NCBI GenBank assembly: GCA_910575665.1
Contig: CAJTFB010000035.1
Span: forward strand, 1 to 39,906
Direction: 5' to 3'
From: Eubacteriaceae bacterium
GTDB taxonomy: Bacteria; Bacillota; Clostridia; Lachnospirales; Lachnospiraceae
Length of the DNA: 39,906 bases
The notes beneath the pieces were generated by a model, which saw only the letters and a program-made list of their open reading frames with translations, ran no database searches and was not told the DNA's origin. Positions 13,187-37,764 of the stretch are shown here, piece by piece. Each line of letters starts with the position of its first letter. The first letter of the stretch is position 1. The translations under genes were made by a program, and so were the position numbers.

Positions 13187-14608
13187 CTATATTTTCTGCA
13201 GGAATTCATCTCGTATTTTATTTATAATTATGCGTTCTTCATGGGAAAGCATATCTGCCCGCCTGTTCTTACAATAGCTGACTTCCCGTTTTTCCAATAC
13301 TGTTGCCACATATTCTTCTGCCCATTTATTCCTATAGCCCTGGGCGGTCAACACCAAAACAAGATTATCTTTCGCAGACAGATCATCTATATATAATTTT
13401 TGAAGCGGACAATTCTCAAGATATTCTGCGACTTTTTGTACATATTTTCTGTTCGCAAGCTTCAGACACAATACGCCCAGAACGCACACCGTACACTGAA
13501 GCCCCAGAACGATCAAAGGCATAAATAATTCCATCTCCCAAAAGCCATCCAGTTCATTGGGCAGAAACCATGCCACGAAAGAAAGAAAATAGATTGGTGG
13601 AATTAACAAAAAGACGGTTGCAAAAATCTTGCTGCAGTAATGATTAATTCTTTTCTTCTGCTGACGTCCTGTCAAATGTCCATTGATATATGTCAGGTAA
13701 GCAAAATCTTTTTCATTTGCCCGCAGCACACAGGTAAGCCACACTGCCAGATACATCACACAAAATAATGAAAAAAATGCACATGTAACGATACTTTTAT
13801 ATCTGTCATTTCCATAAATGGGATTATTCTGTGTAAGAATGTCACGGACTTTATAAATCGTACCATAATCATTACATTTTTCTTTCGCTTCCATCATTTC
13901 AGTCTCATCAGCCTGAAAGAAGATTCCAGAAGACCGTTGATACCAGCTTGAATCCTCTAGTTCAAAGGCGGGATTCAAAAAGATCTGGCTGACCGCCGTT
14001 GGGTCCAGCCTTCCATCACGTGCTTCTGAAAACATAGACTCCGAAATACGGTGGCTAAACGCTGGACTATCGGGAGTCTGACTGAATAATATCTTATCCT
14101 GCCTCATCACCCCTGCCACCGTACATTCGATGGTTTTTACCGGTTTGGGTTTTCCGTAAAATGAATTTGTATTCCATATCCTGATCTGCATGGTACTGCC
14201 AATGGGATGCTCTCTTTCCAGATCGCGGGAAATGATGACTTGATTAGCATCTGCCCTGGAAAAATTATCTCCCTTTTTTAACTGGTAATCATACATTTCC
14301 CAGGCTTCCTCCGAACAATGATAAACATCATATCCATCAAAAGAATGAATCCGCTTTGTGTCTAGAGTTTTAAAATCATGTTCTATGTAAGCCAGCCCTG
14401 GATCTTCTTCCATCGAAGAAATATCGCTGAGATAATAATACCAGCCATCCCCCATCCTCTCAAGAGGATGCCATTTATTCGCATTTGCCTGATAAAATAG
14501 TAAACCATAGAACGCATACATGCCTGTCAGAGAGAAAAGAATGACAAAACCTATCATAGCAAGCTTTTTTTTATTGTAAATATATCTACACATCAACTGA
14601 AATTTCAT
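13187..14608 (-). CDS. Predicted ABC-transporter membrane subunit (FtsX-like topology)
   Basis: A 473-residue membrane protein I do not recognise by family name. It has one N-terminal membrane segment (about 15-37), a large extracytoplasmic domain of about 230 residues, three membrane segments in the second half (TCAFFSLFCVMYLAVWLTCV, IFATVFLLIPPIYFLSFVAW, FMPLIVLGLQCTVCVLGVLC), and a cytoplasmic tail. This one-plus-three layout is the FtsX/MacB-type permease topology. It overlaps the ABC ATPase gene by 23 bases (ATG at 14608, AGAAGG 8 bases before it), so it is very probably translated with that ATPase and is its partner. It is the last gene of the long peptide/ABC unit and ends one base from the convergent flavodoxin-like gene. 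Confidence 0.7.
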   Translation of the reverse strand: MKFQLMCRYIYNKKKLAMIGFVILFSLTGMYAFYGLLFYQANANKWHPLERMGDGWYYYLSDISSMEEDPGLAYIEHDFKTLDTKRIHSFDGYDVYHCSEEAWEMYDYQLKKGDNFSRADANQVIISRDLEREHPIGSTMQIRIWNTNSFYGKPKPVKTIECTVAGVMRQDKILFSQTPDSPAFSHRISESMFSEARDGRLDPTAVSQIFLNPAFELEDSSWYQRSSGIFFQADETEMMEAKEKCNDYGTIYKVRDILTQNNPIYGNDRYKSIVTCAFFSLFCVMYLAVWLTCVLRANEKDFAYLTYINGHLTGRQQKKRINHYCSKIFATVFLLIPPIYFLSFVAWFLPNELDGFWEMELFMPLIVLGLQCTVCVLGVLCLKLANRKYVQKVAEYLENCPLQKLYIDDLSAKDNLVLVLTAQGYRNKWAEEYVATVLEKREVSYCKNRRADMLSHEERIIINKIRDEFLQKI

Positions 14609-15266
14609 ACAATTTACCTTCTCTTAATTGATAGATCCGATCCGACCGTCTGGCAATTTCCATGTTATGGGTTATCATGATCAGTGTGCGATGATATTTT
14701 TTAACTCCCGAAAGCAGCAGATCGATCACCGCATTCCCCGTCTTTTCATCCAGATTTCCCGTCGGCTCGTCGGCGAGGATAACATTGGGCTGGTTTACCA
14801 ATGCCCTTGCGATGGCCACCCTCTGCTGCTGTCCCCCTGACAGTTCATTGGGAAAAGCACTTCGTTTTTCAAGAATACCCAGATCCTTCATTAATTCCTC
14901 CACATACTCATCATCGATCTTACATTTATCCAGCTGCAGAGGGTAGACAATATTCTCATACACCGTAAGTACCGGAATCAGATGAAACATCTGAAAAATA
15001 TACCCCACATGCCTGCGTCTGTACCGGGCGAGTTTAGTCTCGGACAGATTGGAAATATTCTCGCCATTTACAATCACCTCACCCGCATCAAAATCATCCA
15101 GCCCTCCCACAATATTCATAATCGTAGTTTTGCCTGCGCCGCTGGGACCATAGATCGTCACGAATTCTCCGGTTTCCACCTCCAGATTAACCCCTTTTAG
15201 GACCTCCTGCTTTTTAACACCTGTCCCATAGGATTTTGAGACATTTTCTAAAATAACTTCTTTCAT
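14586..15266 (-). CDS. ABC transporter ATP-binding protein (MacB/LolD type)
   Basis: A 226-residue cytosolic ATPase that would power the neighbouring FtsX-like permeases. All ABC motifs are present: Walker A GPSGAGKT (about residues 40-47), Q-loop YIFQMF, signature LSGGQQQR, Walker [13 protein letters not shown], and the H-loop MITHN. The sequence is of the MacB/LolD/FtsE class, which handles peptides, lipoproteins or antimicrobial resistance rather than nutrient uptake. I chose the ATG at 15266 because GGAGGG lies 5 bases upstream; an in-frame upstream start has no such site. It sits between two permease genes and overlaps the downstream one. Confidence 0.93.
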
Positions 15267-15303
15267 TTTTCCCTCCATTTGCGCATGTTTTTTGCGCCTC
15301 ACA

Positions 15304-15357
15304 CAAGTTTGGGCGTGGGCGCACAAACTTGATAGGTTGAAAGATTTCTTTCAACCT
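15304..15357. repeat. Two adjacent intercistronic hairpins
   Basis: CAAGTTTG (15304-15311) pairs with CAAACTTG (15324-15331), extended by GCG/CGC inside the loop. Next to it, AGGTTGAAAGA (15334-15344) pairs perfectly with TCTTTCAACCT (15347-15357). Neither is followed by a T-run on the minus strand. They fall between the large permease and the ATPase and may stabilise or process the mRNA. Confidence 0.55.
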
Positions 15358-15364
15358 TAGCACC

Positions 15365-17737
15365 TTATTCTCTATTTTGAATCATTTCCACAATATTTGC
15401 ATTCATGTTTTTTTGGACTGCCCTATAGCTTTTCCCTAATATGAGTAACATCAACATAACAACCGTAACAATGTACGCCGGGATACTGAATTCTGCCTGC
15501 TGAAAGATCTGTGAAGTAAAATAATAGTTTGCAAAAAGAGATACAATTACTGCAATGATCACCGCATAAAATCCTAAGCGGATACTCTCCAGGCAGATCA
15601 GTTTTTTATATAATCTGCGGTTCATTCCAAGAGCCCTCATAACCCCGTATTCACTTCTTCTGTTTATCATATTAAATTCTACCATACTTTCTATCATTGA
15701 AAATACAAATACAAAGAAGGCGATACATATATAGGATGCCAGAAAAATGATGGCCAGTAACTGATTTTCATCGGAACTCTCTGCATTCAGCGGAACGATT
15801 AAAGCATTTTTTAGATTTTCTTTTACGAACTCTTCAAAGTGTGCATTGTCAAAGCGGCTGTTGGTTTCCAGAGACATGCTGGAATACTGCCCTGTAACAA
15901 TTCCGATCCTTTCAGCCATTTTTTCATTCAGGATAAATTTGATCGTATCATCGTTTTCTGTCAGTTCGCCTAACAGACTCTGCGTTCCCACACACGTCTG
16001 AGTCACTGGCATCTGTATTTTTTCTTCCTGGTTTACCCCTTCCAGGGTGACCGAAGACGCCAGATCAAATTCATCGCTGCTATATGCCACGGATACAGGT
16101 TTATTCTCATAGTCCTGGTTCTTTAACTCCGGATTGTATTCCAGAAGCTTTTCCCATAAAGAATCGCTGTAAACAACAAGAAGACTGTCCCTCTCTGACT
16201 GTAATTTGACTTCCCTGGCTATGAATTGGGAATAGACCTCTTCTACACCATCTAACTCTCTGAATTTCTCGACATCCCGATCACGAAAATAATCCTCTGT
16301 CTCATAGTCGAAAATTATTTCATACCGGCAAAAATCCTGTCTTCCCTTCTGGGGAGTAAAGTCCACGACACTAAACGTATTTGCTATGATCAGCAGAAGG
16401 GTGAGGGTAACACTGATCACCGCTATGACCGTAAAACTCTGGGACCGGTTACGCCATATATTTCTCCCTGCCAGATACCCTACTATGTTTTTTTGTTTTG
16501 TCTGTTTTCTTTCATGGGAAGGTTTTCTGATCTTCGAATTCTCCTCAAAATTCATCGCCTGGACAGGTGAGATTTTTATTACCCCCAGCCATACCTTTAA
16601 GGTTGCCATCAGAATTGGCAGAAGGGCAACCAGATACACTTCTGCATAAGTACCCCACATCTGCCTTAGTCGAACAGAATAATCCACCTTCATCAGCGCA
16701 TTTAGCACCTTGTCTGCGACAAACCGGTTCAGCACATTACCCCCAAGGATTCCAAACAGAATACCCGCGTGGGAGATCAGCATGCTCTCTCCAAAAATAT
16801 TTCCTGCCAGCGTCTTCTGATCGCCGCCCAGACATCTCATGATGCCAAGGTATCGGATCTTCTGGAATACATTGATATGGAAAACCCCATATATGTATAT
16901 CATCATCCCCGCCGCTATGATGACCGTCAGGAGCTTAAGGGTCTGTGAAACCGATGTAAAGGTCCCCTCTTCTTCATAGAGGGCGCTTTTCTGCTCATTC
17001 CAAAGAACCCGGTCTCTGAAAAAATAGGTTTTCTCTTCCGACTCTTCTGGATAAAGGACCTCCCGTATCTCATATAAAAAATCCGCGATCTTATCCGCTT
17101 TATACTCTTCTTTATGGATCGTCACCGCCACCGCATTACTGTCCGATGCTTCGGAAAGCCCCCACTGTTTCCTCAGCTGGTCCGCCGTCAGAACACTGGT
17201 AAAGATCATATCCCCTTCGTCCTTTATATTAGAGAACACGCCGCATACGGTAAATGCTTCTTTGTGATTTCTGTTCTTTTCATCAGATATGCTTAATTCC
17301 ACTCTGTTTCCCAGCTTATAATAATCCGGCTGTGACTCCATCAGGCTTTGGGAAACGATAATCTCCCCTGTCTCTTCCGGTTTCCTGCCAGCGATCATTT
17401 CACAATCTTTAAAATATTCCAGATCCCCCTCCAATCCAAGTATCCGTCCTGCTTTCGCCCTCTGTTCCAGATCCACATCGCCCACCCAGATCGTATACAT
17501 CTGTGCCGCCGTCTGCTTTTTCGCAATCTTCTGTATCTTTTCCATCTCTGATAAGGTGATCCGGGTAATACTTACGTCACGGTGCAGTCCGTTTAAAGCC
17601 AGATCATGAAACTCTTTCACCAGTACGTCCCCCATCTGCATAAGAGAGAACATAAGCATCACAGAAAATGCGATACACAAAATCGTCTTGCTGGTTCTTT
17701 TTTTATTTCGCAATAAATATCTTATTATGATCTTCAA
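15365..17737 (-). CDS. ABC transporter permease with two FtsX modules
   Basis: A 790-residue membrane protein with about eight membrane segments arranged as two FtsX-type modules. The first has an N-terminal segment near residue 20 and three more at about 265-400. The second starts near residue 435 (SFTVIAVISVTLTLLLIIANTF) and finishes with three segments after residue 665. Each module carries a large extracytoplasmic domain. Such permeases pair with MacB/BceA-like ATPases for export of, or resistance to, peptides. The start is TTG at 17737, with AGGAG 9 bases upstream, overlapping the exporter stop as TTGA, which ties it translationally to the radical-SAM peptide operon. Its base composition is less AT-rich than the genes before it. 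Confidence 0.85.
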   Translation of the reverse strand: MKIIIRYLLRNKKRTSKTILCIAFSVMLMFSLMQMGDVLVKEFHDLALNGLHRDVSITRITLSEMEKIQKIAKKQTAAQMYTIWVGDVDLEQRAKAGRILGLEGDLEYFKDCEMIAGRKPEETGEIIVSQSLMESQPDYYKLGNRVELSISDEKNRNHKEAFTVCGVFSNIKDEGDMIFTSVLTADQLRKQWGLSEASDSNAVAVTIHKEEYKADKIADFLYEIREVLYPEESEEKTYFFRDRVLWNEQKSALYEEEGTFTSVSQTLKLLTVIIAAGMMIYIYGVFHINVFQKIRYLGIMRCLGGDQKTLAGNIFGESMLISHAGILFGILGGNVLNRFVADKVLNALMKVDYSVRLRQMWGTYAEVYLVALLPILMATLKVWLGVIKISPVQAMNFEENSKIRKPSHERKQTKQKNIVGYLAGRNIWRNRSQSFTVIAVISVTLTLLLIIANTFSVVDFTPQKGRQDFCRYEIIFDYETEDYFRDRDVEKFRELDGVEEVYSQFIAREVKLQSERDSLLVVYSDSLWEKLLEYNPELKNQDYENKPVSVAYSSDEFDLASSVTLEGVNQEEKIQMPVTQTCVGTQSLLGELTENDDTIKFILNEKMAERIGIVTGQYSSMSLETNSRFDNAHFEEFVKENLKNALIVPLNAESSDENQLLAIIFLASYICIAFFVFVFSMIESMVEFNMINRRSEYGVMRALGMNRRLYKKLICLESIRLGFYAVIIAVIVSLFANYYFTSQIFQQAEFSIPAYIVTVVMLMLLILGKSYRAVQKNMNANIVEMIQNRE

Positions 17738-19401
17738 ATGCTGTCACTCCTGTTTTTTAAATATATCCTATGATTTTTTATTTCATATATATTACCTGTC
17801 TCAGAAATAAAATTTTCACTATGTGTAATTATAATAACAATCTTATCTTTAAAAAAAGAATTAAGATTTAATTTTAATTTTGTTTCTGTAGCCTTATCCA
17901 CCCCCGCCGTTCCTTCATCAATAATTATAATAGGTTTTTTCATAAAAATCGCCCTTGCCAGACATATCCGGTTTATCTGGCCTCCAGATACATTATCACC
18001 AAAACCATGTATAACGGTATTTAAGCCATTTTCCATAGTTTGTATATCTTCCCATATCATGCTTTCTTTACATATTGGTATTATTTCCTCCATTTCTGCC
18101 GGTTCCCCTAAAGTAATGTTATTCCATATTGTATCATTAAAAATAATGGAGTCCTGGGAAACCCAGGATATATATTTTGCCAGTTGTTTCTTTTCAAATG
18201 AATTTAATTCTTCTTTATCAAACCAGATATAATTTTCTTTTGTTTCTATCTTTTTCAGCAGTAAATTTGCCAACGTGGTTTTACCAATCCCACTTTTACC
18301 AATTATGTAGTTTATTGTATTCTTCTTAAAGATAACATTTAAACCATTAAAAATCAAACTCTTATCTGTATATGAAAAAGTTAAATCCTTAATCTCTATC
18401 TGGTCAATTTTTCTTAATCCTTTCTCCCCAGCAATATTTTTTTCTCTCTCAATCCCCAATATCTCCAGAACGTTTTCTATAGAAGCAATATTAGCAAACA
18501 GTTCGGAGGGTATTCCGGTTAATGACGTCAATGAGCTTATAAACATCGACGTGTATTGGAAAAATGATACCAGCTGGCCTATCGTCATATGACCCCTTAT
18601 TACTCCTAAACCACCAAGTAATAATATAGTACTACTGATTATATTTGACAAAATCGATAATCCAGCTCCTAAATAACTACAAAATCTGCTTTTTTCATAT
18701 TCTTCACGGAAATTAGCCTTTAAAACTCTATTGTACCTTGATACAATATATTTTTCCGCCCCAAGACTGCATATGCTTTTGTAATTTAAGATTATTTCAT
18801 TTTCTACTCCTGCTATATCAATAAAACTATTCCTGGTCTTTTCACTTTTTTTACCAAGGATCTTATTACTCTTAAGCCGGATCATCAAAATAACCGCTTC
18901 CAAAAACATTACTAAAACAGCCATCTTTAAATTTATTTTTATTAAAAAGCAGGCTGCCAGTATAATTCCCGCCATATCAGTAAATATTTCTTGTCCAACT
19001 GAAGTTACAAGTGTCAAAAAAGTATTTACATCATGAGTAAAAAGTGCATTGATCTCCCCCTCCTTTAATTCTTTAGATGTAAACAATACATAATCCAAAA
19101 CACTGTTCTTAAGCGCCTTCTCCATTTTATAATTTATTTTTTTACTATAAAGCGTTTTAATAATTGAAAAGACGTTTTGTATTACATATACGATACATAT
19201 ACCAGCTATAGCAATGAGAAAAAGTTTAATATTTTTTTCACCAATTCCAACATCAAAAATCAACATGTTCAAATATGGATTAATATAAGAAATTGAGGAT
19301 CCTAAAATAGAAATTATAATTAGCAACAAAAAATTAATTTTATATTTCCACAAAAATGTAAGTCCAGCTTTTAATTTAATATTACCAATGCTACATCTCA
19401 T
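17734..19401 (-). CDS. ABC exporter (fused membrane and ATPase domains)
   Basis: A 555-residue half-transporter of the peptide/lipid exporter type. About residues 1-300 hold the six-helix membrane domain (for instance FLLLIIISILGSSISYI near the start). The ATPase domain has Walker A GKSGIGKTT near residue 370, Q-loop VSQDS, signature NVSGGQINR, Walker B PIIIIDEGTAGVD and H-loop IITHS. There is no N-terminal C39 peptidase domain, so leader removal would need another protease, and a subtilase-like gene lies directly upstream. It overlaps that gene by 11 bases and the following permease by 4. The coding sequence is visibly AT-rich. Likely exports the mature peptide made by the locus; that role is inferred from context. 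Confidence 0.9.
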   Translation of the reverse strand: MRCSIGNIKLKAGLTFLWKYKINFLLLIIISILGSSISYINPYLNMLIFDVGIGEKNIKLFLIAIAGICIVYVIQNVFSIIKTLYSKKINYKMEKALKNSVLDYVLFTSKELKEGEINALFTHDVNTFLTLVTSVGQEIFTDMAGIILAACFLIKINLKMAVLVMFLEAVILMIRLKSNKILGKKSEKTRNSFIDIAGVENEIILNYKSICSLGAEKYIVSRYNRVLKANFREEYEKSRFCSYLGAGLSILSNIISSTILLLGGLGVIRGHMTIGQLVSFFQYTSMFISSLTSLTGIPSELFANIASIENVLEILGIEREKNIAGEKGLRKIDQIEIKDLTFSYTDKSLIFNGLNVIFKKNTINYIIGKSGIGKTTLANLLLKKIETKENYIWFDKEELNSFEKKQLAKYISWVSQDSIIFNDTIWNNITLGEPAEMEEIIPICKESMIWEDIQTMENGLNTVIHGFGDNVSGGQINRICLARAIFMKKPIIIIDEGTAGVDKATETKLKLNLNSFFKDKIVIIITHSENFISETGNIYEIKNHRIYLKNRSDSI

Positions 19402-20362
19402 TATGTACTCCCTGTTTTTCTATAAATCTTGCCAAACTATGCACAGACATAAACTCGCAAAAATGCAAGTCCTCAATTTGCACCTGCAAATCAAAACGTT
19501 CAAACAAATTTATTAATATTTCTGCGAAATTGTCTTCTGCAATCCATATGTCATTTATGCTGACGTCTTTAAACTCAATTGCATTAATAGGTTCAGTAAG
19601 ATATTCATTCAAAACATTTACTATTTTCATCAAAGTTTTTACTTCCGTCTTTTCTACATCCCAAATCTTTCCTTTCTTACATTGTTTAAACAAAATGTCG
19701 TCTTTAAAACCAGAGTAATTTCTTAAATAATCTGCAATATTCCTTTTATCAGCCTTTCCCCGCTTCAAAGCATTCACAAAACCTGCTGCAAATTTAGGGA
19801 CTGCTTTACTTGTGCCGCCAAAAATACAATATTGATTTTCCGAAATTTTTATAAACTCCGGTGTCGCATCTGCATGTATATAATATTTACCTTTGCTATC
19901 TTTACTATTGTTATCAAAATAAAATTGGTCAGCAGCTAAAAAAGCCCCTTGGGCGACTCCAAGCACTGCTGGATGATTTGCTGGAAATCCAAAACCCTCT
20001 CCTTTTGTATTATTGGAACAGGAACATATAACAATAGCTCTTTTGCTTACGAATAAATCAATCCATTCCGCTATTTGATTATAAATAGATTTATCTTTAA
20101 TTGTAAAACACAATAAAAGCATATCAAAGTTCATATTTAAAAGGCATTGAAAAGATTCTATGATTCCCATCGCCCTGACAGAGATGATGTGAATCGTTAC
20201 ATTAGACTTATTATATTTATAAAAGGTACGGACCACTCTTTCACCATGTGATATATTATCATCCCTGTTATGTTCGAAATGCAAATCAAACTCTCTTTGA
20301 CTCTCAAAGAAATAATAATTCTCATTCTCTTCTCCAAAATCATCCATTACAACTATATTCAT
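19391..20362 (-). CDS. Subtilisin-like protease with C-terminal degenerate acyl-carrier-like domain
   Basis: A 323-residue protein without signal peptide, so cytosolic. Residues 1-195 fit a compact S8 subtilase: Asp7 in IVVMDD, His39 in ISHGERVV, oxyanion Asn117 or Asn118 in CSCSNNT followed by GFPANHPAVLGVA, and Ser185 in FGGTSKAVPKFAAG. Residues about 240-318 look like an acyl carrier protein (FAEILINLFERFDLQVQIEDL...FMSVHSLARFIEK), but the usual DSL phosphopantetheine serine is replaced (Asp277-Asn278). Carrier-like proteins are known from clostridial radical-SAM peptide-maturation cassettes, where I recall an 'ACP-related' family. Here it is fused to the protease. Probable role: recognising and cleaving the modified precursor. 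Both the fusion and the function are inference from motifs. Confidence 0.72.
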   Translation of the reverse strand: MNIVVMDDFGEENENYYFFESQREFDLHFEHNRDDNISHGERVVRTFYKYNKSNVTIHIISVRAMGIIESFQCLLNMNFDMLLLCFTIKDKSIYNQIAEWIDLFVSKRAIVICSCSNNTKGEGFGFPANHPAVLGVAQGAFLAADQFYFDNNSKDSKGKYYIHADATPEFIKISENQYCIFGGTSKAVPKFAAGFVNALKRGKADKRNIADYLRNYSGFKDDILFKQCKKGKIWDVEKTEVKTLMKIVNVLNEYLTEPINAIEFKDVSINDIWIAEDNFAEILINLFERFDLQVQIEDLHFCEFMSVHSLARFIEKQGVHNEM

Positions 20363-20436
20363 ATTTAGCTATCCATACAATAATATTAAAAAGTAAACCT
20401 ATTATAATCTCAAATTAATTAATTTCAAAAATTATA

Positions 20437-20682
20437 CTACCATAAGGCAGTAGTTTTTGCCGTAAATTTACGATAACAATATACACCATAAATACTCTTA
20501 ATTTTTCTTACTTCAGAAATACTCTCCTTACCGTTTGCTTTAAACTCTCCGGTTCTTGTTATTACTTCCCAATCACCTTTGAATTTTTGTAAAAACTCCA
20601 CGCAGTCGTCCAGACATCCCTGTGTCTCAATATCAAATTGATCTTCCAATTCTAATTGGTCCATTATATTATCAACTTTCAT
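20437..20682 (-). CDS. Probable RiPP precursor peptide
   Basis: An 81-residue peptide placed between the second radical SAM enzyme and the protease. The first half is acidic (MKVDNIMDQLELEDQFDIE...) with two cysteines at 23 and 27 (GCLDDC). The C-terminal third is basic and aromatic (KSIYGVYCYRKFTAKTTALW) with one cysteine, four aromatics and a terminal Trp. That acidic-leader, basic-core layout is typical of ribosomally made modified peptides. Its ribosome-binding site AAAGGAGGT, 4 bases from ATG, is the strongest in the locus, as expected for a substrate needed in excess over its enzymes. It matches no precursor I can name. An alternative is a small accessory protein rather than the substrate. 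Confidence 0.65.
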   Translation of the reverse strand: MKVDNIMDQLELEDQFDIETQGCLDDCVEFLQKFKGDWEVITRTGEFKANGKESISEVRKIKSIYGVYCYRKFTAKTTALW

Positions 20683-20711
20683 ATGTACCTCCTTTATGCT
20701 CTATAATAGAT

Positions 20712-21698
20712 TTACTTTTTAACCGACTTCAATAAATTAACCAGCTGGCAGACCAGTTTAGGCGCTTCCAGATAATCATTGCATACTGCCATATTTATAT
20801 ATTTACATCTGTTCGCAATGCAATATTCTTTGTCTTTACAATTTATACAGTTGTAGTTATCTTCAGAGTAAACAGCCCTGAGATTTTTTATTTTCTTATC
20901 GTCAATTCCTGTCTTAATATTTCCTATACAGTATTCTTTTTTTCCATATACAAAAGTACATGGATATAGATCACCCGTAGTTGAAATACTGTATTCATAA
21001 ACCCCTCCACAACATCTTCCCTTTTTCCTGTGGGGATCATGATCAAAAAAATCAAAAGTTTTTTGTCCATTATCTTTAAAATCTCTAATTTTTTTCAGTT
21101 CCCGTTTCAATAGAGAAATATTTTCCATTGACCACCTGGGAGAAAATAAATCGGGAGCTGCAACCAATGTTTTACACCCCATCTCCCAAAGACTCTTAAC
21201 TCCCTGAGATAAGTACTGTACATTTTCTGGAACTACTGTCATTCTGACCCTTGGTTCTATATCATTTTCTAAACATACAGATATTTTTTTTACTACTATG
21301 TCGTATATACTTTTTTCCTTCCAGTTCCTTCTACTTATATCATTACTTATTCTGTCCCCATCAATACTAACAGATAAAGAAACATCATATTTAATTAAAA
21401 AATTTATAATCGTATCATTTAATAATATTCCATTCGTAGTAAGAGAATAAAAACAATTGAGATTGATATCTTCCAATTTGCAAACAACCCTCTTGATAAA
21501 TTCAAAATTCATCAATGGTTCTCCGCCGTGAAAATTTATCATCACCTCTTCCCAATTTTTACTGGTTTCTACTATAAAAAATATTAAATCATCAAATAGC
21601 TTTTGATCAAAACTTAGATCTTCTCTTATTCCAGATTCATAACAGTAACTACAATTTAAGTTACAACTGTGTGTGACCCATATGTTAAACAGTCCCAT
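20712..21698 (-). CDS. Radical SAM/SPASM peptide-modifying enzyme 2
   Basis: A 328-residue radical S-adenosylmethionine enzyme. Cys12, Cys16 and Cys19 form the CX3CX2C cluster motif (THSCNLNCSYCYE). NFHGGEPLMN is the SAM-binding GGEP motif. The C-terminal SPASM region holds extra Fe-S cysteines (RCCGGVYEYSI, LYPCTFVYGKKEYCIGNI, NCINCKDKEYCIANRC). Enzymes of this group install thioether, C-C or related crosslinks in peptides. I chose the ATG at 21698 because GGAG precedes it by 5 bases; it overlaps the upstream radical SAM gene by 14 bases. AT-rich coding sequence. The precise modification is unknown. Confidence 0.9.
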   Translation of the reverse strand: MGLFNIWVTHSCNLNCSYCYESGIREDLSFDQKLFDDLIFFIVETSKNWEEVMINFHGGEPLMNFEFIKRVVCKLEDINLNCFYSLTTNGILLNDTIINFLIKYDVSLSVSIDGDRISNDISRRNWKEKSIYDIVVKKISVCLENDIEPRVRMTVVPENVQYLSQGVKSLWEMGCKTLVAAPDLFSPRWSMENISLLKRELKKIRDFKDNGQKTFDFFDHDPHRKKGRCCGGVYEYSISTTGDLYPCTFVYGKKEYCIGNIKTGIDDKKIKNLRAVYSEDNYNCINCKDKEYCIANRCKYINMAVCNDYLEAPKLVCQLVNLLKSVKK

Positions 21699-22971
21699 GA
21701 CATCTCCAATACATATCAAAATATTCATTATTATACTTACACCATTTTTTAAAATCCTTACGATCTACAGTCTTTCTTACTGTGTTTGCACAACTAAAAC
21801 AAAGTAGTTGTTTATTGCATTCACCACACTCTTTTTGATTGAATGGCATCCAGGAATAAAATCTTTTGTACCCCTCTGTTTTTTTATATTCTCCCCGATC
21901 AAAATATGATTTCAAATCTTTAATTTCTATTATATTTCCCAAACTAAACTCAATTTCCATAAAAGATGCACAAGGGAATATTTCTCCTAAATGATTTATC
22001 TGAAATTCTGTTCTGGCCCCCTTACAAGCAAAAATTTGAGGTTGCACACGAAAGATTTTATGCTTAAGAAAATATTTTTCCATATCTTCTTTATTTGCAT
22101 ATATACAACCATTATCATCGATTTCCAGCATTTTTTTATTATCATTTCCTCTGCCAGTATCCTCAAAACATCGAATAATTCCTTTCACATGTAAAATATT
22201 TTTACAATAATCTAAAAATTGATCTCCTAACTCTTTTGTTTCTTTAGATAAAACCATGGAGGCAGAAATCCTCATATTATGTGCTTTCAACAGTTTAAGC
22301 CCTTTTAAAGTTTTTTCAAAAACTCCTTTTCCTCTTAAAATGCTACAACTTTCCTCATCAATTCCATCGATACTGATATCTACTGCATCATATTTTTCTG
22401 ATATGTATTTTGCCAGAGATTCTGTAACCAACGTAGCATTTGTCATTAATATAAGAGCCCCTTTATAATATTTCCTGATCTGATCCGTAATTGTTACAAA
22501 ATCTTCCCGGTATAAGGGTTCTCCTCCTGAAACTGTTATACTTGCCGGCTTTAACCGGGCAATACTTTTTACGATCGTAAGCATTTTCTCAGTTGATAAA
22601 TCCGATCCGTTTTTTTGATCACCAGCACTAACACAGCAATGTTTACATCTCAAATTACAATTGTTTGTAATGTCTATAGAAAAATTTAAAAACTCTGATT
22701 TCATATTTTCTATATCCATGTCGTTCCACATACACAATTGCTCTAGCTTTGATATAAGTTTAGCCATATAATTTTTTGACGCTTTATCCTCTATAGCTTC
22801 AATTAACTGATAATATGTTAGATCTTCCTCTATTGACTTTTCTATTATATTTACACACTCATTCGACAAAAACAGACACTCACCATTATCCATATTTGCT
22901 AATAAAGTGCAATTCTCACCTCTTAATAAACGTACTCTGGAATTAAAGCCCACTTTTTCATTAGAATCCAT
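21685..22971 (-). CDS. Radical SAM/SPASM peptide-modifying enzyme 1 with N-terminal PqqD-like domain
   Basis: A 428-residue radical SAM enzyme, first gene of the peptide locus. Residues about 15-85 resemble a PqqD-like precursor-recognition element (CLFLSNECVNIIEKSIEE...YYQLIEAI). Cys105, Cys109 and Cys112 form CNLRCKHC, followed by VSGGEPLYRED. The C-terminal SPASM segment has CKGARTEFQINHLGEIFPCASF, LGNI, then KECGECNKQLLCFSC and a final WCKYN. The pattern is closest to clostridial Cys-rich-peptide maturases as I remember them; this is not confirmed by search. Likely binds the leader and makes the first crosslink. ATG start with only a weak ribosome-binding site. Strongly AT-rich. Confidence 0.9.
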   Translation of the reverse strand: MDSNEKVGFNSRVRLLRGENCTLLANMDNGECLFLSNECVNIIEKSIEEDLTYYQLIEAIEDKASKNYMAKLISKLEQLCMWNDMDIENMKSEFLNFSIDITNNCNLRCKHCCVSAGDQKNGSDLSTEKMLTIVKSIARLKPASITVSGGEPLYREDFVTITDQIRKYYKGALILMTNATLVTESLAKYISEKYDAVDISIDGIDEESCSILRGKGVFEKTLKGLKLLKAHNMRISASMVLSKETKELGDQFLDYCKNILHVKGIIRCFEDTGRGNDNKKMLEIDDNGCIYANKEDMEKYFLKHKIFRVQPQIFACKGARTEFQINHLGEIFPCASFMEIEFSLGNIIEIKDLKSYFDRGEYKKTEGYKRFYSWMPFNQKECGECNKQLLCFSCANTVRKTVDRKDFKKWCKYNNEYFDMYWRCHGTV

Positions 22972-23026
22972 AATAATTTTACTCTATCTTTCATTAAATT
23001 TTATAATATATTTTTTAATTCTTTAT

Positions 23027-23099
23027 ATTATAAATAGTATCTGATACATTGATTAAAGTCTAGAACTTTTCATCGCAATTTTCGACATAAAACGACATA
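23027..23099 (-). promoter_or_regulatory. Promoter region of the radical-SAM peptide operon with direct repeats
   Basis: On the minus strand a perfect TATAAT lies at 23027-23032, about 55 bases before the first gene, but no good -35 box is present 17 bases upstream. Two exact TATGTCG repeats spaced 10 bases apart (complements of 23083-23089 and 23093-23099) lie about 60 bases further up. A weak -35 with upstream direct repeats suggests activator-dependent expression. Confidence 0.5.
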
Positions 23100-23125
23100 T
23101 TGCAGATATTTAGACCCTGTAAAAG

Positions 23126-23164
23126 ACAAAAAAATAGAACTGCCTCTGTAATTAAGACAGTTCC
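23126..23164 (-). terminator. Rho-independent terminator of the recJ-transglutaminase operon
   Basis: Read on the minus strand, GAACTG and CAGTTC close a stem of about nine pairs around TAATTAC, followed by TATTTTTTTG. It lies 15 bases after the transglutaminase stop and separates that operon from the peptide locus. Confidence 0.85.
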
Positions 23165-23178
23165 ATATGCTGCTATTT

Positions 23179-32602: not shown

Positions 32603-34023
32603 CTTCTTTCCTCCTCTGCTTCTAAAGTATCTTCAGGATCACCCACATTCGCAGGAAACCGGATCTTTACCCGGGTTCCCTCTCCCTGACGGCTCTCAAA
32701 ATTCATTGTTGCCTCATGCAGATCCAAAATCTTCTGACAGATGGCGAGCCCCAGCCCCGCACCACCCTGGCGGCGGCTTCTGGACTTATCTACCATGTAA
32801 AATGCCTCGGTGATCCTCACCAGTTCTTCCTCCGGAATCCCCTGGCCATTGTCACACACTTCAATCTCATAGTCATTTTCCATCGCTTTACCATTCAACA
32901 CGATGACCGTTGCGTTACTCTTCGCCGCATTATCTGCCAAATTAATGAAAACCGAGTACAGCAGCTCCGGTTCTCCACACAAAGTTCCCTCTTCCGCCGA
33001 AACCACCAGATTTTTCCCCTTACTCTCCATGACCGGCATCAGCATTCCCTGGATTTCCTGCAAAAAATCCAAAGCATTTATTTTACATAGCTGCAGCTCG
33101 CTTTTTTCTAAAACGATCAGATCCAGCAGACGGAATGACAAGGTCTCCAGCCGCTTTCCTTCTTTAAAAATATAATTGGCACACAAAAACTGCTGCTCTT
33201 CCGTCTGACGATTGGAACGCAGCAGGTCCGCATATCCGATAATAGAGGTGAGGGGGGTTTTCAATTCATGGGCAAAACTTCCAATAAATTCCTCCTGTCT
33301 CTCCGCCGCGTCCTCCAGCTCCTGAATTTTACCTGCCAGGCTGTCCGCCATACGATTGAAATCCGCTCCCAGACGGCTGATCTCATCCCCTCCCCGGATG
33401 CGGATCCGGTGTTCCAGATCCCCTCCAGCGATCCGTCCCGCACTCCGGGAAATTTTTTTGATCGGTCGGACGATACATCCAGCCAAAATCAGACTGACCA
33501 ACCCGTCCAGAAGAAGAAAAAGTATGAGAAACCGATGGTAGATCTGTATCTCTTCCTGCCGTTTTATAAAAAGATCTGTGACATCATGAAAAAGTACTGC
33601 CTGATACACTATATCCTCCACTGTAACCCGACTTTTTACCTGAATATAGTAGTTTCCCTCATAATTTACAAGCCGTCTTGTCATCCCTTCTGCTTCTGCC
33701 TTCACCTCTATCTTGTTTTTTGGAAAAGATGTGTTGGAATACAAAATGGTACCATCTTCTTTTTGTATATGCACCTGTATATTTTCCATCAACAATTCAT
33801 CGGCGAGGACGGCAATCTGTCGGTCTGCATCTTCTTCCTTTGAGACTCCTACCATATAATTTCCAAACTCATGCAAAAACAGCTGATCCACATTGATCGC
33901 CCCATCCACTGCCTGCTCATACCCAGATTGAAAAAGGGCAGAGATCAAAAAATACCCTGCCAGACAAAATGTTACGATCATCGTGATCACAGTTGAAAAA
34001 AACAATTTCCATGTAATTTTCAA
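32599..34023 (-). CDS. Sensor histidine kinase
   Basis: A 474-residue membrane kinase. Two membrane segments (about 7-30 and 165-187) flank an extracytoplasmic sensor domain of about 135 residues. HAMP follows (IVRPIKKISRSAGRIAGGDLEHRI), then the phospho-acceptor box FAHELKTPLTSIIGYADLLR with its His. The ATPase domain has NLADNAAKS (N box), EVCDNGQGIPEEEL (G1) and GGAGLGLAICQKI (G2). The start is TTG at 34023 with GGAGG 9 bases upstream inside the response regulator's last codons; the regulator's stop is 4 bases away. Signal unknown. It pairs with the OmpR-type regulator just upstream. Confidence 0.93.
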   Translation of the reverse strand: MKITWKLFFSTVITMIVTFCLAGYFLISALFQSGYEQAVDGAINVDQLFLHEFGNYMVGVSKEEDADRQIAVLADELLMENIQVHIQKEDGTILYSNTSFPKNKIEVKAEAEGMTRRLVNYEGNYYIQVKSRVTVEDIVYQAVLFHDVTDLFIKRQEEIQIYHRFLILFLLLDGLVSLILAGCIVRPIKKISRSAGRIAGGDLEHRIRIRGGDEISRLGADFNRMADSLAGKIQELEDAAERQEEFIGSFAHELKTPLTSIIGYADLLRSNRQTEEQQFLCANYIFKEGKRLETLSFRLLDLIVLEKSELQLCKINALDFLQEIQGMLMPVMESKGKNLVVSAEEGTLCGEPELLYSVFINLADNAAKSNATVIVLNGKAMENDYEIEVCDNGQGIPEEELVRITEAFYMVDKSRSRRQGGAGLGLAICQKILDLHEATMNFESRQGEGTRVKIRFPANVGDPEDTLEAEEERS

Positions 34024-34027
34024 GGAT

Positions 34028-34681
34028 CTATACCTCCAATCTGTACCCGATCTTATAGATGGTTTTTATCTTTTCTTCCCAGCCCAGTTTCCTTTTGAGG
34101 CGCTGCACATGAAGATCTACGGTTCTGCTTTCCCCAGTATAATCCTTTTCCCATATTCTTTCATAAATCACATCACGAAACAATGCAATATTTTTGTTCT
34201 TTATAAACATAATTAGAAGTTCATATTCTTTATTGGTTAAACGCACCACCTTTTTATCTTTTTTTACAGTCCGGGAACGGGTATCTACTTCCACTTCCTC
34301 CACCCGCAAATATTGTTCATTTTTATCGTATCGACGGAGCACTACCTCCACCCGTGCCAGCAATTCCACAATCTCAAAGGGCTTTGTCAGATAATCCTCT
34401 GCCCCCATCTCAAGCCCCTTTACCGTATCCTCAACATTCGACTTTGCCGTCAGGAATATAACTGGAATCCCCATCGGCTGAATGTATTCCATCAATTCAT
34501 AACCATCCACTTTTGGCAGCATAATATCCAGCAGTACTAGATCATAGTACTCTTCTTCCAGTTTGTCCGCTGCCTCCATTCCGTCAAATACACACTCACA
34601 TTGATACCCCGCTTTCTCCAGACTCATGGATATGAGATTGGAGATGGGCACTTCATCTTCTACAATCAGTATTTTTATCAT
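34028..34681 (-). CDS. OmpR/PhoB-family response regulator
   Basis: A 217-residue transcription factor. The receiver domain has the acidic pair at residues 9-10 (VEDE), the phospho-accepting Asp52 in DLVLLDIMLPKVDGYEL and Lys in LTKPFEIVELLARV. A winged-helix DNA-binding domain follows (LTNKEYELLIMFIKNKNIALFRDVIYERIW...RTVDLHVQRLKRKLG). I chose the ATG at 34681 because GGAGGG lies 5 bases upstream. It heads the regulator-kinase-hypothetical operon. Targets are unknown; the nearby C39-like peptidase gene is a possible one. Confidence 0.94.
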   Translation of the reverse strand: MIKILIVEDEVPISNLISMSLEKAGYQCECVFDGMEAADKLEEEYYDLVLLDIMLPKVDGYELMEYIQPMGIPVIFLTAKSNVEDTVKGLEMGAEDYLTKPFEIVELLARVEVVLRRYDKNEQYLRVEEVEVDTRSRTVKKDKKVVRLTNKEYELLIMFIKNKNIALFRDVIYERIWEKDYTGESRTVDLHVQRLKRKLGWEEKIKTIYKIGYRLEV

Positions 34682-34778
34682 TTCGCCCTCCATTCCAAAA
34701 GGTTCCCCTTATATCACGCATCGAGAGAAAAGAATATCACATATTTGTATCAAAAGTGTTTCATAGAAACATAGCAGA

Positions 34779-35561
34779 CTATTCAACCTGAAATTTCATT
34801 ACAGCTTTTATGTATAGTGACTCACATATTTTAAGGATTTCTTCTCTTGTTTTTCCTTGTAACTGTTTAACAAATAATTCCACAATATAATGATTATATT
34901 CCATATTTGTATAATAGCCCTGATGATCAATGGTATCTTTTAAAAAAATAGCCAATTGTTTCGTTTTTTCTCTTTCTCCATTTAATCGAAACCGTCTTAT
35001 ATGATCTTCAATAAATTCTATTTCCTGTTCCGAATACTGATATTTATTACTTGGCTGAAACCTGGACTGCAACACATCATATTGCAATCTTAATGGATTT
35101 TTAGTATCCTCTCCCCATACCCCGCCAGGCTGTAGTATAATATGTGCTGTTCTATTTTTCAGGTATGCTGATTTTATTCTCAAATATTTGCTACAAGGAA
35201 CTGTACAATTGGGTTTACAGTTTCCTTTCTCAAAAACCCGTATTTCATCATCAGAAATTATTCTAAACTGTTGTTCTTTCTTTTTATAACTTAAATTACA
35301 TTTACTGCATACAATCCCTATATTAGGTGTACATTGTTCCAACTTCAGGGAATAATCCTTCTCTACCGCATGTTCCAGGTGGCCCGTCCCAATCCCGTCT
35401 ATCACTATTCTTCTGTAACAATACATACAATATCCTCTACTGGCCCTTTCAAGAACACTTCTCAAATTCCCTTTCGATTTTTCTGAGGAATATCCATATT
35501 GTACATTTTCTTCATATTCAACCAAAAAGTCTGGTATATCAATTATGGGCAAATTATCCAC
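34779..35561 (-). CDS. HNH endonuclease-like protein of a putative defence operon
   Basis: A 260-residue cytosolic protein. Residues about 44-95 fit an HNH nuclease: CMYC, then HLEH with the catalytic-type histidine, then Asn in TPNIGIVCSKCNLSYKKK with the second zinc CxxC. A further cysteine cluster follows (NCKPNCTVPCSKYL). The C-terminal half is helical and unassigned. This layout recalls PtuB/TIGR02646 HNH proteins that pair with ABC-type ATPases in Septu and retron defence systems; the resemblance is by motif and context only. The start is GTG at 35561, 4 bases after the ATPase stop, with AAGGAG upstream. AT-rich coding. Confidence 0.78.
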   Translation of the reverse strand: MDNLPIIDIPDFLVEYEENVQYGYSSEKSKGNLRSVLERASRGYCMYCYRRIVIDGIGTGHLEHAVEKDYSLKLEQCTPNIGIVCSKCNLSYKKKEQQFRIISDDEIRVFEKGNCKPNCTVPCSKYLRIKSAYLKNRTAHIILQPGGVWGEDTKNPLRLQYDVLQSRFQPSNKYQYSEQEIEFIEDHIRRFRLNGEREKTKQLAIFLKDTIDHQGYYTNMEYNHYIVELFVKQLQGKTREEILKICESLYIKAVMKFQVE

Positions 35562-35565
35562 TACA

Positions 35566-36507
35566 TTACCACTCCTTTATCTGCTGCAATAATAATTTTT
35601 GTGAATTCGTCAGATTCTTCCCTTCCAATCTGGATAATTCTATATCATTGTCCTTTATCCAAACTCCTGATATGCGGTTATTCAATAAAATTCTTAATTT
35701 ATCCTCCACATTATCTTTTGGGGATTGCACATATGGAAATACCTTTCCAAAAAGTGCAGATACATCATATTCGTCACAAAAATCATCTGAATCAATCACT
35801 TCGATATCTTCGTGATATAAAATCATAATATTACAATGCTTTGAATTTTTTACCAGTTCACTGGAATGGGTCGACACAAGAAATTTCATTTTAGAAAAAC
35901 GAGCAATTAGAAAATTCAATATTTTTCCCGCGTTTGCAGGGGATAGAAATTCGTCAATCTCATCAATTACTACCATAACATGATTTTCCACCATATCATT
36001 TAGATATAATAATTCCAAAAACATCCGCACAAGAGCCTGTATCCCACTTGAAAGGGTTCCTTCTGATTCTGGTGCAAACCGGACTTCTTTCTCCTTAATT
36101 CCTTTCAACTCAAAAGAAACACCAAGAAAACTCTTTAATATCTCCTGTAATTCCTTCTCGTATTCCAGATAGATTAATTCGATCTGATCATTTAAGGTTC
36201 CAAATAAACTAAATGTATCTTTTAAATTAAAATACTCCTTCTCCACCCTTGTTTTAATAACATCCACATTACTTGAATTTTGTATTTGAGAATACGGTGT
36301 TGACACTTTAGAAACATCAAAATATCTATTAACCGAATCAATATAATAAATTTCTTCGCCTCGATTCAGCATTTCTATAATATATTCTTTTATAACTGCT
36401 GATTTGCCACTTGCATTTTCCCCAATTAGAATCGTATGCGTGTGCTTCATTTTTTCCTGTATCAAAACTTTCGTAGCATTATTTACTACGCTTTGACAAA
36501 ATTTCAT
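35566..36507 (-). CDS. ABC/OLD-like AAA ATPase of a putative defence operon
   Basis: A 313-residue ATPase. Walker A is LIGENASGKSAVI near residue 30. A charged helical insertion follows. The ABC-like signature is EGTLSSGIQALVRMFLEL, Walker B is VMVVIDEIDEFLSP, and the switch histidine is in LVSTHSSELV. This is the AAA_21/AAA_15 arrangement seen in OLD-family and PtuA-type ATPases that control a nuclease partner. No TOPRIM domain is present in the remaining 80 residues, so it would need a separate nuclease: the HNH gene directly downstream. ATG at 36507 was preferred (AAGGTG upstream). It overlaps the DUF262 gene by 29 bases. Confidence 0.82.
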   Translation of the reverse strand: MKFCQSVVNNATKVLIQEKMKHTHTILIGENASGKSAVIKEYIIEMLNRGEEIYYIDSVNRYFDVSKVSTPYSQIQNSSNVDVIKTRVEKEYFNLKDTFSLFGTLNDQIELIYLEYEKELQEILKSFLGVSFELKGIKEKEVRFAPESEGTLSSGIQALVRMFLELLYLNDMVENHVMVVIDEIDEFLSPANAGKILNFLIARFSKMKFLVSTHSSELVKNSKHCNIMILYHEDIEVIDSDDFCDEYDVSALFGKVFPYVQSPKDNVEDKLRILLNNRISGVWIKDNDIELSRLEGKNLTNSQKLLLQQIKEW

Positions 36508-37597
36508 AAACACCTTTCCACCTTTCTGTCATCTTCCCTTTCCCAAATGTACCCTGATCCGTATTCTTCTTATATGACTCTGAACGCTTAATTTCATCCA
36601 GGATTTCGTCTGTAATTTCATCCTTTATATTACACTTTTCACAGACAATATATGCACTCGTTAATAATGTCACCTTCTGATTCATTACTTTTCCCACCTT
36701 CATCTGTCTGATAAAACGCTCAATACTATCTTTATACTCCTCGATTATTTTATTATCTTCAATTTGAAAGACAAATTCCGAAAAATAATCCAAAAAATTA
36801 GCCAGTCTCCCTGTATAATTTTCTATATGAAATTTCTCACCATCAAATGTGACATGTTTACGGTAAGCACATAAGGTCAGCAGAGTCTCCATATCTTTTC
36901 CATTTGCACTCTCCTTTCCCCACAGCTTTCTCCATGCTGGGTTGTTATCATTAATATTATGAAGCATATCATAAAATCTACAGTCATATACCCCGTCTCT
37001 GATTTCCTGCGGTTCAAGATTTACACCGCCTTTATTCAAATTCTTAAATATCTGCTGTATCGTCTCCGCCTTTTTTTCCTGGTTAACCCATCGAATTTCA
37101 ACTACAGTCAGCGAAACATAATCAACCACACTTTGCACTTCAACTGGAAGATTTGCATAACTGATATCTATTTCATTACCATTATCAAGAACCATTTTAG
37201 TTTCTAATGGAGAGAGTGTATAAGCATCTTTCAAAGCTTCCTTGAAACTTTTTCCCGTCACATCAAGCTTTTGATAGTCAACGGCACTATTCTTTTGTGA
37301 ATCTGCATATTCTCCTATATAATAGAAAAACAAACTAAATATTCTTTGCTGCCCATCCAATATTTCCAACTGATTTTTCTTATTGCGATATGTGTAAATT
37401 GGAGGGATTGGAAAGTCACAGATCAATGACTGAACCAGTGCCTCTAACTTCTCCTTACTCCATTTATATTTCCTCTGATATTTAGGAATAATATATCTAT
37501 TATCATTTACTCCTTCCATCAATGTTTTAAAACCAATATCTGTTTTATATTGCTGTATTTTAATATCATCTAAATATTTCTGAATTGATTCCGCCAT
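36479..37597 (-). CDS. DUF262 (GmrS-like) domain protein of a putative defence operon
   Basis: A 372-residue protein. The N-terminal DUF262 domain has PKYQRKYKWSKEKLEALVQSL, PIPPIYTYR and the hallmark ILDGQQRIFSLFFYY (about residues 65-80), a ParB/sulfiredoxin-like fold that in GmrSD and BrxU binds and hydrolyses nucleotides. A second conserved piece is FKNLNKGGVNLEPQEIRDGVYD. The rest is helical, and no HNH (DUF1524) domain is fused, unlike GmrSD; the HNH is instead a separate gene two places downstream. ATG at 37597 has an excellent AAGGAGGGG site. First gene of the AT-rich operon, driven by an extended -10 promoter. Confidence 0.85.
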   Translation of the reverse strand: MAESIQKYLDDIKIQQYKTDIGFKTLMEGVNDNRYIIPKYQRKYKWSKEKLEALVQSLICDFPIPPIYTYRNKKNQLEILDGQQRIFSLFFYYIGEYADSQKNSAVDYQKLDVTGKSFKEALKDAYTLSPLETKMVLDNGNEIDISYANLPVEVQSVVDYVSLTVVEIRWVNQEKKAETIQQIFKNLNKGGVNLEPQEIRDGVYDCRFYDMLHNINDNNPAWRKLWGKESANGKDMETLLTLCAYRKHVTFDGEKFHIENYTGRLANFLDYFSEFVFQIEDNKIIEEYKDSIERFIRQMKVGKVMNQKVTLLTSAYIVCEKCNIKDEITDEILDEIKRSESYKKNTDQGTFGKGKMTERWKGVYEILSKRSK

Positions 37598-37648
37598 TTT
37601 GCCCCTCCTTTTCAAATTTTTATCATTTTATCATGGTTTATGAAATTT

Positions 37649-37657
37649 AGTATAACA
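37649..37657 (-). promoter_or_regulatory. Extended -10 promoter of the DUF262-ATPase-HNH operon
   Basis: Minus-strand TGTTATACT (TGnTATACT) about 52 bases before the DUF262 start, with no consensus -35. It lies between the rubrerythrin terminator and the operon, so the operon is transcribed independently. Confidence 0.55.
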
Positions 37658-37690
37658 TATTTTCTACACAATTTCACTAACGACTTACAC

Positions 37691-37727
37691 AAAAAATCAG
37701 GGTGCACAGGTTACTGCCTGTGCACCC
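37691..37727 (-). terminator. Strong rho-independent terminator of the perR-rubrerythrin unit
   Basis: On the minus strand GGGTGCACAGG pairs perfectly with CCTGTGCACCC around CAGTAA, followed by TGATTTTTTG. It lies about 40 bases after the rubrerythrin stop. Confidence 0.93.
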
Positions 37728-37764
37728 CGGATATATCACAAATCCTTATTTTAAACTATTTTTC

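Follow-up and report, generated by a model that had tools for sequence, protein, structure and literature searches.

In the quinohemoprotein amine dehydrogenase (QHNDH) pathway, the radical S-adenosylmethionine (SAM) enzyme QhpD forms thioethers between Cys and Asp or Glu, the cytosolic subtilisin-like protease QhpE removes the leader, and QhpF carries out the export; the product of the QhpC pathway is an enzyme subunit (PMC7876137). PapB joins Cys to Asp in the motif CX3D, and both longer and shorter spacings are tolerated (PMC9413430). Thuricin CD-type sactipeptides use two radical SAM enzymes per cassette (PMC12093266), and a survey of rumen bacteriocins assigns ranthipeptides by the model TIGR03973 (PMC13289728). 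Herein, an operon related to these systems is described within a 39,906-nt stretch of DNA of Eubacteriaceae bacterium (GCA_910575665.1, contig CAJTFB010000035.1, positions 1 to 39,906, forward strand), which is called the window at its full length. The operon is likely to make a ribosomally synthesized and post-translationally modified peptide (RiPP) of an uncatalogued cross-linked family, which follows a QhpD/QhpE/QhpF-like logic and is probably a ranthipeptide-like bacteriocin.

Gene content of the operon

The biosynthetic genes are located on the minus strand from 22971 to 17734, in the order rSAM1, rSAM2, 81-residue peptide, S8 protease and ATP-binding cassette (ABC) exporter. The features are as follows.

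21685..22971, minus strand: rSAM1, a radical SAM/SPASM protein of 428 residues (Pfam Radical_SAM, 8.4e-24) with an N-terminal extension of about 90 residues
20712..21698, minus strand: rSAM2, a PapB-like radical SAM/SPASM protein of about 328 residues (Pfam Radical_SAM, 2e-12), with a longer frame from 21728
20437..20682, minus strand: the 81-residue precursor, with QGCLDDC, the C-terminal segment CYRKFTAKTTALW and the Shine-Dalgarno sequence AAAGGAGGT
19391..20362, minus strand: a cytosolic S8 (subtilisin-like) protease of 323 residues, the presumed leader peptidase, without signal peptide or propeptide as judged by eye
19391..19681, minus strand: a domain resembling acyl carriers at the C-terminus of the S8 protein, in which the phosphopantetheine serine is not conserved (profile against solved structures)
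17734..19401, minus strand: an MsbA-like ABC exporter of 555 residues (Pfam ABC_tran, 3.5e-22; ABC_membrane, 2.3e-21)

The first-pass annotation had proposed five AT-rich genes in this order on one strand, two of them for SPASM radical SAM enzymes and one for an ABC exporter, and all of them were recovered. The G+C content is 0.30-0.32 over 18001-23000, about 0.40-0.45 directly downstream and 0.44-0.54 for most of the remaining window. Both of the overlaps it had listed were also found: the S8 and ABC genes share 11 bp (19391-19401), and the overlap at 21685-21698 holds with the rSAM2 start at 21698. The ATG at 21698 is a likelier start than 21728, since the frames of two of four relatives begin at or just before MLFNIWVT. 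The annotation had also regarded the five genes as a complete modify-cleave-export set. The five genes are real, but the set was incomplete: the degenerate carrier-like domain of the protease was missed, and so was an FtsX/MacB-type module. Past the ABC gene, the operon continues to 13187 and includes two permeases, the first of them FtsX-like, with a MacB-type ATPase between them. No C39 or other peptidase domain was detected by Pfam in the ABC exporter.

Comparison with described systems

The operon is similar to the QhpD-QhpE-QhpF system in that a radical SAM cross-linker, a cytosolic subtilisin-like leader protease, an ABC exporter and a small Cys-rich polypeptide occur together (PMC7876137). 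Unlike that system, the cassette has two radical SAM enzymes, and its rSAM2 clade is separate from seven QhpD-labelled rows. The window proteins scored below the Qhp cutoffs (quino_hemo_SAM, 102.6 versus 453 bits; QhpE, 24.5 versus 165 bits). As a control, the QhpD cutoff was passed by six of the seven QhpD-labelled rows, locus L092 being the exception. Among the S8 proteins of three QhpD loci tested, one passed the QhpE cutoff, one reached 157 versus 165 bits, and one had no match at 1e-45. A Pfam scan of 19 window proteins found no dehydrogenase subunit.

The PapA/PapB ranthipeptides, such as freyrasin, are also similar: PapB is the best model for rSAM2, and the core Cys and Asp are closely spaced. 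The differences are the second radical SAM enzyme and the S8 protease. The ranthipeptide model scores were below cutoff (PapB, 155 versus 340 bits; SCIFF, 120 versus 425 bits), and no SCIFF precursor or CX3D core was present. The invariant Asp26 is compatible with a Cys-to-Asp/Glu non-alpha thioether. The sactipeptide maturase model StsB was likewise below its cutoff (101 versus 625 bits).

The clostridial CcpM (TIGR04068) bacteriocin cassette shares a radical SAM enzyme, an exporter and a serine-less carrier-like component, the acyl-carrier-related protein of that cassette being TIGR04069. The differences are the score (133 versus a cutoff of 500 bits) and the fusion of the carrier-like domain to the protease in the window cassette. 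Thuricin CD-type sactipeptides share the two radical SAM enzymes per cassette (PMC12093266) and differ by the dedicated cytosolic S8 protease with a carrier-like tail and by a precursor that fits no NCBIfam or Pfam family. In a review on leader proteases, the terms 'QhpE' and 'ranthipeptide' do not occur (PMC10885120). Searches of the open-licence PMC library, which does not cover subscription papers, found no description of the cassette.

Conservation of the precursor peptide

The 81-residue peptide is a real gene under purifying selection. The ratio of nonsynonymous to synonymous substitution rates (dN/dS) was 0.14-0.16 among the window and two sister species with 81-residue homologues (loci L154 and L157). 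Residues 1-27 and 68-81 are nearly fixed among these three, and residues 28-67 are variable. The Shine-Dalgarno sequence of the precursor, judged by eye, is the best of the operon. No second copy of the peptide was found in its own genome, where the next match had an E value of 0.17. A conserved leader of approximately residues 1-20 with F-D-I/V-x-x-Q is followed by a core that would start near QG-C23-L-D-D26-C27 and that ends in C69-YRKFTAKTTALW. D26, C27 and C69 are found in every row of a 16-row precursor alignment, and C23 in 15 of them. A C-terminal T-A-K-[T/S]-x-x-x-W is common among the precursors and is not present in all of them.

The peptide was then compared across 26 cassettes (window, L010-L012, L015-L021, L023-L027, L030, L037, L127-L129, L154, L157, L161-L163), which were selected by an S8 gene with rSAM1- and rSAM2-type genes, the presence of the peptide not being required. 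A small open reading frame (ORF) with C-x2-D-C was found near rSAM2 by rule in 22 of 23 cassettes, by reading in L015, where a longer in-frame ORF masks it from the rule, and in all three plasmid cassettes. Among control radical-SAM loci such an ORF occurred in 4 of 59, and two of those four are other Cys-rich peptides. This count is a description with a control and not a blind test, because the motif was picked after the cassettes had been viewed. The first-pass annotation had made its reading depend on conservation of the peptide beside these enzymes in other genomes, and this was borne out in 26 of the 26 cassettes counted. A small precursor is thus linked to and co-conserved with the modifying enzymes throughout, as expected of a RiPP. 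The linkage and co-conservation strongly indicate that the radical SAM enzymes act on the 81-residue peptide. The NCBIfam cutoff was reached by none of the 26 precursors and the Pfam cutoff by none of 16, in agreement with the earlier remark that the precursor fits no class that can be named.

The relatives of the precursor are Cys-rich, multi-copy in places and 43-91 residues long, counted from the first start codon. Ruminococcus albus has tandem arrays of six and five precursors, and the last of each is without the first Cys. In Blautia (L024), ten precursor copies are found within 21 kb, together with three MacB/FtsX pairs. The short precursors of Blautia and Paenibacillus tritici (L025) carry an extra Cys ahead of C-x2-D-C, for example CDPDDCAHDC. 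The multi-copy arrays of Ruminococcus albus and Blautia support a role as substrate, since multiple copies are typical of precursors. It is highly improbable that the 81-residue protein is instead an accessory chaperone of the PqqD/WgkC type. A marginal NCBIfam WgkC match (E 0.056, 13.4 bits versus a cutoff of 110) points that way; the variable length, the Cys content, the copy number and the pattern of conserved ends with a variable middle all argue against it.

Two controls (L062 and L064) have very Cys-rich peptides of 86-88 residues beside a different radical SAM protein, which is another RiPP-like locus.

Radical SAM enzymes

The CxxxCxxC cysteines of rSAM1 (C105/C109/C112) and its SPASM cysteines (C316, C334, C382, C385, C391, C394 and C411) are invariant in ten rows. 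The CxxxCxxC motif and the seven SPASM cysteines of rSAM2 are also invariant in a five-row alignment. The best NCBIfam score of rSAM1 was 102.5 bits versus a cutoff of 400. For rSAM2, the models were ranked as PapB first, followed by CcpM and SCIFF.

In a tree of 90 rSAM2-like proteins, the 17 cassette rows and L028, a 3-kb contig, form one clade (100/99), and the QhpD-labelled rows are elsewhere; L154, L157 and L161-L163 were not part of this tree. Four cassettes have three radical SAM enzymes (L026, L027, L030 and L037, from Anaerocolumna, Eubacterium, a Clostridia metagenome-assembled genome (MAG) and Paenibacillus). One rSAM2 paralogue of these is a possible sister of the clade (87/89), and another is elsewhere in the tree. 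Their candidate precursors are 47-52 residues long with C-x2-D-C, and three of the four also have EGYAYC. A second rSAM1-type gene is present in L023, L129, L161 and L163. At L010:14086-16347, a single protein of 753 residues combines rSAM1 with rSAM2, and this fusion supports that the two enzymes act together.

The same RiPP cassette may form alpha-carbon thioethers, as in sactipeptides, or cyclophane-type C-C or C-O bonds in place of ranthionine links, and this alternative has a minor but appreciable probability. The nearest NCBIfam models of rSAM1 are ScmE, StsB and WgkB (98-102 bits, all under cutoff), and SkfB is its second-best solved structure by profile (1.8e-26). The C-terminal segment T-A-K-[TS]-x-x-x-W could also be a Lys/Trp cross-link site. 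Ranthionine links are favored by the ranking of PapB first for rSAM2, ahead of CcpM and SCIFF, and by the invariant Asp of C-x2-D-C, which is a natural ranthionine acceptor.

S8 protease and its carrier-like tail

A 14-row S8 profile matched subtilisin best among solved structures (1e-29). The Asp-His-Ser triad and the oxyanion Asn (D7, H39, S185 and N117) are invariant in 19 of 19 rows, including the window. The subtilase-like protein that had been proposed as cytosolic is therefore firm by profile, although weak by single sequence.

The tail was also compared by profile, and the top two of its 39 solved-structure matches are carrier proteins (8.1e-5 and 3.6e-4). At the phosphopantetheine position, Ser was seen by eye in about 1 of 13 aligned rows (L016), so the serine that a functional acyl carrier needs is mostly missing. 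The predicted structure is fair to good for the catalytic part and poor for the tail, with a predicted local distance difference test (pLDDT) score of about 30-49; the carrier fold is thus suggested by the sequence profile alone. The S8 frames of the cassettes have 303-398 residues versus 227-249 residues in seven QhpD loci, and the QhpE-like frames therefore have no room for a carrier-like domain.

FtsX/MacB module and probable loss of the biosynthetic block

The downstream module consists of three genes.

15365..17737, minus strand: an FtsX-like duplicated permease of 790 residues, a candidate immunity transporter (Pfam FtsX, 8.4e-20)
14586..15326, minus strand: a MacB/LolD-type ABC ATPase (Pfam ABC_tran, 3.3e-35), whose true start is probably internal
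13187..14608, minus strand: a second MacB-like permease of 473 residues (MacB_PCD, 1.5e-4, under its cutoff)

The FtsX gene starts at 17737 and overlaps the ABC stop by 4 bp. Among 39 genomes of the genus, its own included, rSAM2 was found in three and the FtsX gene in five, with all three rSAM2 genomes among them. In L156 and L158, the block at 17.75-23.2 kb of the window, with its 5.4-kb biosynthetic part, is absent, and the FtsX, ATPase and second permease genes are intact. The FtsX gene in both is directly 3' of the transglutaminase gene, with the terminator gone, and the junctions differ between the two. L155 has a third, larger deletion, where only the last permease and the ATPase end remain after the transglutaminase gene. 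The second permease retains 473 residues in L154, L156, L157 and L158, and has a 428-residue frame in L155.

The FtsX module is 99.1% identical between L156 and L157, which has the block. The window and L157 are 88.6% identical over 15.3-24.2 kb (block plus flanks) and 89.4% for the module alone. With this high module identity and with block and flank diverging alike, as in vertical descent, loss of the block in L156 is the simplest reading. A second loss in L158 is likely because L158 groups with the window and L154. An FtsX/MacB module that is kept while the biosynthetic block is lost would be expected of an immunity module in non-producers.

It is quite unlikely that the FtsX/MacB genes encode a resident transporter with no relation to the peptide and that the AT-rich block inserted alongside them by chance. 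The module differs from the block in G+C content (0.40-0.45 versus 0.31), and the clean absence of the block in L156 and L158 would suit an insertion. The evidence against it comes from several sides. L016 keeps the identical gene order with a 791-residue FtsX, and the own genome has no close paralogue (its next-best FtsX match scores 42.7 bits, whereas the FtsX of the L016 cassette scores 335 bits). The restriction of FtsX to five of the 39 genus genomes, the parallel divergence of block and flank between the window and L157, and the 4-bp overlap with the ABC gene also tie the module to the block.

Distribution of the cassette

The relatives were collected from an S8 search in 397 same-family genomes, an rSAM2 alignment in genome contigs, an S8 profile search in 392 genomes of the order, the 39 genus genomes, and plasmids. 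The contig search covered the best 80 of 467 matches, which leaves the list of relatives incomplete. The S8 single-protein search matched 7 of the 397 genomes, its own included, and five of them carry the cassette (own, L010, L011, L012 and L015). The S8 profile search, from which eight loci were retrieved, gives no figure of prevalence because ordinary subtilases also match (244 genomes).

The rSAM1, S8 and ABC exporter-like frames are present in 26 of 26 cassettes, with the ABC frame split into two ORFs in L024; rSAM2 is present in 25 and in the fused L010 protein. Within 9 kb of rSAM2 and at the cutoffs used, a MacB-type ATPase was found in 23 and an FtsX-like gene in 18. The named hosts are Lachnospiraceae, Ruminococcus, Peptoniphilus, Eubacterium, Clostridia MAGs and Paenibacillus, and the others are of the window's own family or genus. 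Three cassettes are on plasmids, two of Paraclostridium sordellii and one of Clostridioides difficile (L161-L163). The plasmid search for rSAM2 matched five records; the three examined are all cassettes, and the other two are records of Acetoanaerobium and Prosthecochloris. Lachnotalea glycerini has two differing copies about 14 kb apart on a single contig (L018 and L019). The 26 cassettes are not 26 independent cases because close kin are included (window/L154/L157, L020/L021, L012/L017, and L018/L019 on one contig). Among phage records, 11 match rSAM2, and the ten listed have 26-30% identity and are unannotated. No S8 relative was found among viral contigs in the close-relative scan.

Some loci were left out: L014 (genome G208; large S8 frame, no cassette), L013 (S8 and ABC genes, no radical SAM gene within the 16 kb retrieved), L130 (S8-like and rSAM2-like genes close to a contig end, without rSAM1), L132 (rSAM2-like, exporter and S8-like genes, without rSAM1 or a convincing precursor), L131 and L133 (S8-like gene, no radical SAM gene), L126 (duplicate of L024), and the short contig L028, although it belongs to the rSAM2 clade.

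LytTR/GHKL two-component genes adjoin L010, L020, L030 and L127, and Agr genes with a cyclic lactone autoinducer adjoin L161 and L163. These neighbors suggest density-regulated production in some hosts. They would also suit a product that is a signal or cofactor-like peptide and not an antimicrobial, and the QhpC pathway gives a precedent with its enzyme subunit (PMC7876137). This explanation is considered unlikely. FtsX/MacB is retained without the biosynthetic genes in two species, and the patchy occurrence (3 of 39 genus genomes, own included), the plasmid carriage and the tandem precursor paralogues are more in keeping with a bacteriocin. Agr systems can also regulate bacteriocins.

In the C. 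difficile plasmid p_TW11 (L162:5895-7418), a murJ-annotated gene adjoins the cassette; the search for FtsX/MacB genes found none at this locus. As a speculation, this murJ gene could be a self-resistance copy, which would hint at a cell-wall target.

Regulatory elements and neighboring regions

Two further elements were located.

22980..23170, minus strand: a regulatory region with a terminator-like hairpin (23166-23134) 3' of the upstream gene, a block around TTGTCGTTTTATGTCGAAA and an AT-rich promoter-like stretch
20435..20452, minus strand: a weak stem-loop at the precursor stop codon, a possible attenuator (terminator-like scan; z -1.3 with mononucleotide shuffles)

The hairpin closes the upstream transglutaminase-like gene, and the sequence block past it is conserved in the three aligned species (window, L154 and L157). 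A strong hairpin 3' of the precursor was found in 4 of 17 folded (L016, L023, L128 and L129; z -3.6 to -6.2). Another AT-rich stretch is present at 34000-38000 of the window (G+C 0.34-0.37); it contains a response regulator gene at 34028-34693 and, at 36479-37615, a gene of the GmrSD type.

Discussion

The interpretation of the operon as the source of a cross-linked, ranthipeptide-like bacteriocin has several points against it. The motif is C-x2-D-C and not the CX3D of PapA/PapB. The PapB score of rSAM2 is below the cutoff in the window and in the relatives scanned (168-211 bits). The S8 protein is weakly matched as a single sequence (Pfam, 0.022; QhpE, 1.5e-5 at the bit score given above). 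The rSAM1 extension resembles a RiPP recognition element (RRE) by size and place only, and no RRE was found in it by profile against solved structures (best 0.087, unrelated). The pairing of an S8 gene with an rSAM2-like enzyme also occurs outside this cassette: L132 and L130 are without rSAM1 and without a convincing C-x2-D-C ORF. FtsX was not found at the cutoff used in 8 of 26 cassettes (L011, L015, L030, L127, L128, L129, L161 and L162), some of which reach a contig end or have large nearby frames of undiagnosed type. The dN/dS values are no proof of selection on FtsX after the block loss because the loss is undated.

From the RiPP reading, we infer the bond chemistry, the cleavage site, the immunity and the activity of the product as follows. 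The two SPASM radical SAM enzymes would cross-link the precursor core. The PapB/QhpD-like rSAM2 most likely forms a non-alpha-carbon thioether between a core Cys and Asp26. A second link, with a remaining Cys or with the Thr/Lys/Trp segment at the C-terminus, would be made by rSAM1. The leader would be cut off near the QG before C23 by the cytosolic S8 protease, whose carrier-like tail possibly serves to dock the peptide, and the product would be secreted by the ABC exporter. The Cys-Asp26 link, the leader cleavage and the export would be expected by analogy with the QHNDH pathway and PapB chemistry. The FtsX/MacB genes most likely confer self-protection, in which case the product would be a bacteriocin-like peptide.

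The cassette is without a name in the libraries searched; its radical-SAM RiPP kind is already known, the protease is unusual, and the loss pattern is bacteriocin-like. A broader proposal can be put forward only tentatively. The cassettes may represent a distinct C-x-x-D-C RiPP class, in which two to three SPASM enzymes act on one short motif and produce fused rings, and a subtilisin with a dead carrier tail presents and cleaves the peptide. In such a class, the FtsX/MacB immunity module may be kept for its benefit after production is lost, and movement between Clostridia may be partly plasmid-borne.

The short C-x2-D-C motif and the recurring gene set define a bounded, testable family across Lachnospiraceae, Ruminococcus, Paenibacillus and clostridial plasmids. 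If the chemistry is as proposed, the family would offer paired radical SAM enzymes that work on one core and a protease whose carrier-like docking domain is unusual. The producer and non-producer sister species would then be a natural pair for a direct test of immunity.

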